Assembly: GCA_016779525.1 (NCBI GenBank)
Contig: JADHNL010000008.1
Span: 1-47,633, forward strand
DNA length: 47,633 bases
Direction of reading: 5' to 3'
DNA from: SAR86 cluster bacterium
GTDB lineage: Bacteria; Pseudomonadota; Gammaproteobacteria; Magnimaribacterales; TMED112
A program made the position numbers and the translations under genes. Each line of letters opens with the position of its first letter. Position 1 is the first letter of the stretch. Below, one piece after another: positions 29,962 through 32,125 of this stretch. A model generated the notes under the pieces. The model had not been told where the DNA came from and searched no databases. It was given only the letters and a program-made list of their open reading frames with translations.

Positions 29962-29995
29962 TTAAAAAAAGTGAAAAAAATACTATATTAGTTTT

Positions 29996-30159
29996 ATCTG
30001 GATCATTTGTTTTCAGAATTTACTCTAGAACCGATAATGTAAATCTAGGGAAGCGGATTCTACACAGCTGTGCGTTACCAAAAAGGGAAGCCTTACTATG
30101 TGGATGAGCTACCCACCTGACCTCAAGGGTTCAGGGTGACTGTTAACTATGATTCAGAT
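29996..30159 (+). ncRNA. ssrS: 6S RNA
   Basis: GGGAAGCCTTA and CACCTGACCTCAAGGGTTCAGGGTG segments resemble E. coli 6S; termini ATCTGGATCAT/ATGATTCAGAT pair over 11 bp (one GU); TATATT -10 at 29984-29989; zapA-ssrS-ygfA synteny. Confidence 0.88.
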
Positions 30160-30697
30160 CCTTCCTAAATCTAATATCCGAAAAGAATTTCTAGATAAGC
30201 GCTTGCAACTCAGTCTTAGCGAAAGGTTTACTCTTTCAAAAAAAATTCATAATAACCTAATTAAGCAATCTTCCTACAGAAAAAGTAAGAACATTGGAAT
30301 ATTCATGCCTATAAAAAATGAACCAATATTGTTTCCTGATTATAGAAAAATAAATTTTGTTCCTGTCATTAAAAATGAGCATCTGAAGTATTGTTATGTT
30401 GGCAATTTGTTAGTGCAAAAAAGTTTTAATATTCTTGAACCCATTAAAAGAGAGTATGTCCAAGCAAAGAAATTGAACTTATTGCTTGTGCCTTTTTTAG
30501 CATTTAATACAGACCTTCACAGAGTCGGTTATGGCAAGGGTTTCTATGATCGTCTTTTATCTCTAATTAGCCATCAGCACTATCGGCCAAAAGTATGGGG
30601 CATTGGCTATCAGTTTCAGCTCTGTCAAAACTCCTTCAACAATAAAAGTGATATAAGATTAGATAAAGTAATTACCGATCAAAAAATATATGGATAA
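30149..30697 (+). CDS. ygfA: 5-formyltetrahydrofolate cyclo-ligase
   Basis: NLLLVPFLAFNTDLHRVGYGKGFYDRLL. Confidence 0.92.
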   Translation: MIQILPKSNIRKEFLDKRLQLSLSERFTLSKKIHNNLIKQSSYRKSKNIGIFMPIKNEPILFPDYRKINFVPVIKNEHLKYCYVGNLLVQKSFNILEPIKREYVQAKKLNLLLVPFLAFNTDLHRVGYGKGFYDRLLSLISHQHYRPKVWGIGYQFQLCQNSFNNKSDIRLDKVITDQKIYG

Positions 30698-31364: not shown

Positions 31365-31867
31365 ACGACCATCGAGTCTTTTGGATCAATTTTATGAGAG
31401 AAACTTTTAACTGTGCCATCTTTTGTGATCAAGTACTTATGAAAATTCCATCTAGGCCTCTCTTTTGTAGCTAAAAAAAGCTTTTTATAGAAAGGGTGGG
31501 TGTTCGCAGCACCAACATTTGTTAAAGAGAACAATGGAAAACTTATGTTGTAGTTTGTTTTGCAAAATTCTTCAACCTCCTGTTCTTCATTAAATTCTTG
31601 ATACAAAAAATTTCGTGATGGGAAACCCAATACTACAAAATCATCATCACTATAAGTTCTACTGAGTTCCTCTAATTGCTCATATTGGTAAGTAAATCCA
31701 CATTTACTTGCAGTATTTACTACCAATATTGTCTTGTCTTTGTATTTACAAAGATTCTGATACTCACTTTTGTTGAGTACTTTTACCTCTTCGTCTAACA
31801 AGGACGGGCATTCAGCATAGAAAATGCTTGATATCAATAAAATTAATAAAGTTCGAAGTTTAGCCAT
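31334..31867 (-). CDS. Glutathione peroxidase-like thiol peroxidase with signal peptide
   Basis: VVNTASKCGFTYQYEQLEEL, GFPSRNFLYQEF, RWNFHKYLI. Confidence 0.85.
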   Translation of the reverse strand: MAKLRTLLILLISSIFYAECPSLLDEEVKVLNKSEYQNLCKYKDKTILVVNTASKCGFTYQYEQLEELSRTYSDDDFVVLGFPSRNFLYQEFNEEQEVEEFCKTNYNISFPLFSLTNVGAANTHPFYKKLFLATKERPRWNFHKYLITKDGTVKSFSHKIDPKDSMVVQAIEDSINS

Positions 31868-31949
31868 TCGGTGATATGCCCAACAATAATACTAAGAATA
31901 TTAGACACAATACTACAAGCTCAAAAGATTCGGAAAGTTTTTCTCTCAT
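31860..31949 (-). CDS. Candidate 29-aa single-TM small protein MREKLSESFELVVLCLIFLVLLLGISPNG
   Basis: ATG...TAA ORF below the 60-aa track cutoff; stop overlaps the GPx start by 8 nt; polar N-terminus plus hydrophobic segment. Confidence 0.45.
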   Translation of the reverse strand: MREKLSESFELVVLCLIFLVLLLGISPNG

Positions 31950-31989: not shown

Positions 31990-32016
31990 TAAAAAAATGG
32001 GGCCATAGCCCCATTT
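31990..32016 (-). terminator. Intrinsic terminator downstream of the L,D-transpeptidase operon
   Basis: Minus strand AAATGGGGC-TATG-GCCCCATTT followed by TTTT (T-run of 7 including stem). Confidence 0.85.
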
Positions 32017-32052
32017 GTGTCAGTCATGGGGGAGAGGAGAGACTGACTTAGA
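31990..32052 (-). ncRNA. Candidate small RNA / attenuator leader with C-rich loop hairpin plus terminator
   Basis: Minus strand GTCAGTC-TCTCCTCTCCCCCAT-GACTGAC hairpin then intrinsic terminator; upstream TTGATA-N16-TAAGAT promoter-like sequence. Confidence 0.45.
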
Positions 32053-32058
32053 ATGTTA

Positions 32059-32086
32059 ATCTTAGCTAGTTTTTTATTAATATCAA
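32059..32086 (-). promoter_or_regulatory. Candidate sigma70 promoter for the small RNA/leader
   Basis: Minus strand TTGATA (32086-32081), 16-nt spacer, TAAGAT (32064-32059). Confidence 0.4.
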
Positions 32087-32125
32087 TAGTTTTTATAAAT
32101 AAATATAAATATTTTTTATATTAGT

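Follow-up and report, generated by a model that had tools for sequence, protein, structure and literature searches.

A conserved two-hairpin RNA with a C-rich loop ahead of a small-protein gene and glutathione peroxidase in two families of SAR86 bacteria

What is encoded between the genes for an L,D-transpeptidase and a glutathione peroxidase (GPx) in SAR86 bacteria? SAR86 is among the most abundant bacterial groups of the surface ocean, and no small RNA described for it was found in the literature searched. The question was raised by a stretch of 47,633 nucleotides from a SAR86 cluster bacterium of the TMED112 type (contig JADHNL010000008.1; this whole stretch is called the window), in which a compact small RNA with a C-rich, anti-Shine-Dalgarno-like hairpin loop had been predicted on the minus strand of this gap (the original prediction). 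Comparison with related genomes indicates that the hairpin is a member of an undescribed conserved RNA family, which extends across two SAR86 families. The members of this RNA family, ~60-85 nucleotides (nt) long, consist of a covarying 7-bp hairpin with a C-rich loop (hairpin 1) and a GC-rich hairpin (hairpin 2).

The features named in the original prediction can all be read in the minus strand of the window. The hexamers TTGATA (32086-32081) and TAAGAT (32064-32059) are separated by 16 nt. They are followed by a perfect 7-bp stem of GTCAGTC (32041..32047) and GACTGAC (32019..32025), which encloses the 15-nt loop TCTCCTCTCCCCCAT (32026..32040), and by the terminator-like hairpin 2, AAATGGGGC-TATG-GCCCCATTT plus a T-run (31992..32016), in which the 9-bp GC hairpin occupies 32016-31995 and the T-run extends to 31992. 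A 71-nt piece of the minus strand folds into the two hairpins with -23.9 kcal/mol, compared with -11.4 ± 2.6 kcal/mol for shuffled sequences (z = -4.8; 0 of 200 shuffles was as good), and the structural features named for the window are far beyond chance. A search of Rfam 15, which had been proposed as a check, found no family reaching the gathering cut-off, either for the window's element or at 12 related loci. Further copies were found neither in the window's own genome nor in the viral contigs searched for the element.

Is the element conserved? Absence of conservation or of compensatory changes in related genomes had been named as the outcome that would speak against the original prediction; it was tested, and the claim withstood it. 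A single copy of the loop core TCTCCTCTCCCCC is present in each of 20 of the 21 genomes of the genus (the one without it is 60% complete), none was found in the 183 other genomes of the order, and the genus elements always lie between the transpeptidase and GPx genes. The 20-nt sequence GTCAGTCTCTCCTCTCCCCC, made up of the 5' arm and the loop core, is invariant in the 20 genomes, as are the first 13 nt of the loop, and the surrounding gap is otherwise variable. Mean column identity is 64% in the stretch between promoter and hairpin (-20..0) and 87% in the promoter region. The 3' arm shows A to G changes only, by which U-G pairs are retained. When all GTDB r220 species genomes were searched for the exact 20-mer of 5' arm and loop, 18 records were obtained, which are titled SAR86 cluster (including TMED112) or marine Gammaproteobacteria metagenome-assembled genomes.

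The same RNA was found in a second SAR86 family, f3. A covariance model built from the 20 genus elements detected more elements there (E 1e-5 to 1e-2), which were confirmed by reading the sequences, and a second covariance model combined with synteny located elements in all f3 genera sampled. The model has matches in 29 of the 34 f3 genomes that are at least 85% complete; in genomes G097, G124 and G125 the element was found by searches other than that model run, and for G092 and G101 the sequence preceding the main GPx gene is unreadable. Paired stems read directly include GTCAGTC/GACTGAC, GTCAGCA/TGCTGAC, ATCAGCA/TGCTGAT, ACCAACA/TGTTGGT, TCCAGCA/TGCTGGA and AACAGCA/TGCTGTT. Compensatory changes, another of the proposed checks, were thus present between the families: in the alignment of hairpin 1 both sides are altered in 5 of the 7 pairs (52 such cells) and 98.2% of the cells are paired, counts that lean towards structure because the alignment was fitted to the structure and its rows are related. 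None of 500 shuffles scored as high, and slid partners were at most 51% paired. The alignment comprised 57 real rows, including L100 and L101 from genus g7 of family f4 (see below), plus one spurious reverse-strand row (L104). The loop core CUCUCCCC is retained in nearly all f3 members, the exceptions being CUCCCCC in genus g10 and CUUCUCCCCCC in G125.

These comparisons bear on whether the element acts as RNA at all. Its arms are perfect inverted repeats, invariant in the genus apart from the G-U changes, and could be taken for a DNA site of a regulator. However, where a single base has changed, a G-U pair is retained on the RNA strand, the arms change together between families, the loop varies by several nt in length among elements, and the most conserved part is the C-rich loop of one strand; taken together, these properties make a DNA repeat hardly credible.

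A class-wide covariance-model search of 369 genomes gave SAR86 only, with filters strict enough that weak relatives could be missed. Matches at L088, L092-L094, L096 and L097 were rejected as false, consisting of terminators only.

Does the RNA have a promoter of its own? In the window alone, promoter matches are no more frequent than chance would give (9 found, 9.5 expected). Among the relatives, TTGATA-N16-18-TAnnwT is present upstream of 48 of 55 elements, with a spacer of 16 in 45 of them, a pattern occurring in ~1% of shuffled upstream sequences. The -35 hexamer is kept, the -10 hexamer is TATTAT or TATAAT in most relatives, and it ends a median of 7 nt ahead of the stem. These observations indicate that a sigma-70-type promoter belongs to the element, and because of its placement the start point is predicted at the base of hairpin 1. 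In the window, 79 nt separate the stop codon of the upstream neighbour, the L,D-transpeptidase gene (PF03734; 32126..32656, minus strand), from the element, which has a good terminator at its end, as would be the case if it were merely the terminator or 3' end of the lnt-transpeptidase operon. In f3, however, the promoter and loop are still there even though the gene upstream is divergent; therefore the promoter is in all likelihood the element's own and the RNA is not a 3' untranslated region. Taking into account also that a terminator needs no second hairpin with an invariant loop, we regard the 3'-end explanation as very improbable.

The conserved sequence TTTATTTATAAAAACTATTGATA (32081-32105 in the window, minus strand) extends upstream of the -35 hexamer in the genus, beyond the needs of a bare promoter, and is possibly an UP element or a regulator site.

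What lies downstream of the RNA? Immediately past hairpin 2, both families have a small gene whose 25-35 codons include a hydrophobic segment, and GPx comes next; the distance from the RNA to the small gene is 10-50 nt in most genomes. In the window this unannotated gene (MREKLSESFELVVLCLIFLVLLLGISPNG, 29 amino acids, one likely membrane span; 31860..31949, minus strand) overlaps the start of the GPx gene (PF00255; 31334..31867, minus strand), which is the downstream gene of the same unit. Changes within the genus are distributed over the three codon positions as 388/81/837, and the ratio of synonymous to non-synonymous changes is 506 to 142, a constraint which indicates that this is a real coding gene missed in annotation. 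A Pfam search with the small protein gave no match. Two tandem small genes of this family are present in L003-L005 and L015-L017.

Since the small gene and GPx come directly after the RNA in most genomes, the RNA element appears to double as their 5' leader. The original prediction is amended by this predicted leader role and by a second, free-standing copy in some genomes (see below). Of the 22 genomes searched in families f2 and f4, one is unreadable upstream; in these families GPx abuts the transpeptidase gene and the element and the small gene are both absent; because they are absent together, they seem to have arrived as one unit.

Is the RNA then a leader only? In that case the hairpins would control the small protein or GPx in cis, either by attenuation at hairpin 2 or by the loop masking the ribosome-binding site of the small gene. 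The co-occurrence of element and small gene, including their shared absence from f2 and f4, agrees with such a role, as does the start of the small gene just past hairpin 2 in most genomes, which leaves no space for another promoter; a weak T-run, as an attenuator would have, is also frequent at hairpin 2. Neither mechanism is favoured by the predicted pairings, however. Pairing of the loop with the ribosome-binding site of the small gene is weak and variable (mean -3.0 kcal/mol) and no better than that of the ribosome's own anti-Shine-Dalgarno sequence, and pairing of the loop with an arm of hairpin 2, as in an antiterminator, is not stronger than for ordinary G-rich terminators (6 background cases). 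Moreover, the conservation of the loop far exceeds that of any partner in cis.

The strongest argument comes from a second copy of the element, which is found in genera g9 and g6 of f3 between a tRNA gene and a convergent exonuclease-I-like gene. These free-standing copies (L079, L083 and L114, and by sequence also L126 and L128) have the promoter, the paired stem, the same loop and the GC hairpin, but are not followed by a small gene, and thus have no gene to control in cis. Mainly because such copies exist, a function of the RNA itself is preferred over control of GPx in cis, and action solely as a leader is considered unlikely, while still deserving attention.

The leader copies in f3 (e.g. 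L080, L084, L091) have a conserved linker, ACTCTGGAA, between the hairpins, which is missing from the free-standing copies. It holds a GGA motif that could suit CsrA.

How might the RNA function? The reading that we favour, with middling confidence, is that of an Hfq-independent small RNA which pairs in trans with G-rich ribosome-binding sites through its C-rich loop and doubles as the leader of the GPx operon. Part of the transcription starting at the element's promoter would stop at hairpin 2, a terminator of varying strength, to yield a short RNA, and the remainder would read through as mRNA for the small protein and GPx. The short RNA would act without Hfq: its loop CUCUCCCC would pair with G-rich stretches at the ribosome-binding sites of several mRNAs and lower their translation, as sX13 does in Xanthomonas. 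Base pairing in trans is favoured because the loop is complementary to G-rich, Shine-Dalgarno-like sequence, because no hfq was found, and because RNAs of this kind are known; the step from a conserved loop to an mRNA target is inferred. No hfq gene was detected in the 21 genus genomes, in a search in which control genomes gave the expected matches; therefore any function of the RNA in the genus would be Hfq-free.

Besides the lean of the covariation counts (see above), several observations weigh against this reading. Several relatives (L009, L011, L018-L020) have only a short T-run, or none, behind hairpin 2, so that a discrete short RNA may be a minor product in them; the stem of hairpin 2 is kept throughout the relatives, and the U-run is good in the window. 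Of the small RNA with a terminator that had been predicted, the structured RNA, the promoter and the GC hairpin can be recognized in the sequence, but hairpin 2 is often a poor terminator. No ribosome-binding site of the form GGGGRGRG conserved across the genus was found, most of the ATG-linked matches not being gene starts, and longer complementarity to the loop was not enriched (~411 places vs 398 for the reversed-pattern control). The near-invariant C-rich loop looks built to bind ribosome-binding sites, but conserved targets were not found by pattern. A good match to the loop, GGGGGGAGAGTAATG, is located at the start of the probable rpsE gene of genome G007 (L174); it was not found by pattern at the same gene in other genomes.

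Cold-shock-domain proteins and Rho prefer pyrimidine- or C-rich single strands. The loop might accordingly be the binding site of a protein such as these, and the RNA a sponge or a sensor. We know of no protein site that matches the loop, and we consider this explanation quite improbable, even though 13 invariant loop nt without a detectable target suit a fixed protein partner as well as they suit many mRNAs, and the presumed Rho-dependent attenuation of a DUF1127 gene has been linked with a C-rich leader element (PMC12218461).

Does the element, read as a trans-acting RNA, belong to a known group? It at most works like sX13, the CCUCCUCCC RNAs and Yfr1; membership in any of them is unsupported. 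The sX13 RNA of Xanthomonadaceae is Hfq-independent, and its C-rich loops repress mRNAs with G-rich motifs near their start codons (PMC3771888). Its loop 3 has UCCCCCU, which is also found in HPnc5490 of Helicobacter pylori (PMC3771888). Like sX13, the SAR86 element is gammaproteobacterial and has a C-rich hairpin loop, with UCCCCCU in f3 elements and UCCCCCA in the window. In contrast to sX13, which has three C-rich stem-loops (4C/5C), polA as a neighbour and demonstrated targets, it has one C-rich loop and lies at the GPx locus; the loop of hairpin 2 is short, either UUCG-like or of another type. No such hairpin was seen in the polA-downstream regions of the f1 and f3 genomes read. HPnc5490 (RepG) shares UCCCCCU, as the central part of its loop, and is reported to target a G-repeat in an mRNA leader, but it belongs to another phylum and gene neighbourhood.

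The original prediction had likened the element to alphaproteobacterial CCUCCUCCC-loop RNAs (SmelA075/SmelA099, RS0680a; PMC3927594), in which a C/U-rich, anti-Shine-Dalgarno-like loop is accompanied by more variable stems. As an analogy this is apt, but neither the motif nor the repeated hairpins match: the SAR86 loop is UCUCCUCUCCCCC or CUCCUCUCCCC(C)UAU, not CCUCCUCCC, and there is one C-rich hairpin per element, in contrast to the several hairpin modules and copies per genome of the alphaproteobacterial RNAs. Cyanobacterial Yfr1 (54-69 nt; PMC2190773) has a 3' terminator hairpin and the ultraconserved pyrimidine-rich ACUCCUCACAC, and many SAR86 elements have ACUCCUCUCCC; in Yfr1, however, ACUCCUCACAC is unpaired between two stem-loops, whereas the SAR86 element has a different motif inside loop 1. 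The Sinorhizobium DUF1127 attenuation element (PMC12218461) is similar in that a small gene has a C-rich stretch in its leader, but the element lies in a translated upstream open reading frame, is presumed to serve Rho, and lacks a conserved hairpin loop of the SAR86 type.

Strict conservation of the loop across two families argues for a strong function. The element can serve as a defined metatranscriptome probe and as a model of how C-rich loops might regulate without Hfq; it also offers a means to learn whether an anti-Shine-Dalgarno-like loop acts in trans, in cis or both. In addition, the locus reveals that a gene for a small protein had been overlooked upstream of GPx.

Another conserved RNA with a C/U-rich loop is present in the polA-engB gap of family f4 (genera g4, g7, g14; L207:1372-1496, minus strand, and L208, L209, L210, L211, L212 and L213). 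A sigma-E-like promoter, GAACTT...GTCTAAA, is followed by two hairpins, the second of which has a C/U-rich loop on a covarying stem (GTCAGCA/TGCTGAC in three genomes, GTCGGCA/TGCCGAC in L210, CCATTGAT/ATCAATGG in g4). An Rfam search with this RNA gave no match. Two covariance-model matches beside polA in g7 (L100, L101) were first taken as the GPx-locus RNA, and their context identified them as a different RNA. The same polA locus is occupied by Spot 42, sX13 and alpha-r7 RNAs in other bacteria (PMC3771888).

Among the SAR86 genomes read, the GPx-locus and polA-side RNAs have complementary distributions. A wider view, which we put forward tentatively and hold to be more doubtful than probable, is that of a dual-purpose RNA in an Hfq-less streamlined marine lineage, serving both as a trans-acting small RNA on many mRNAs and as a read-through mRNA, with C-rich-loop riboregulators having moved or been replaced within one order, sister genera having a different RNA beside polA.

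Elsewhere in the window, at 29992-30164 (plus strand), a 6S RNA lies between a zapA-like gene and the gene for 5-formyltetrahydrofolate cyclo-ligase; its match (44.6 bits, E 5e-8) is just below the Rfam gathering score of 46.4.
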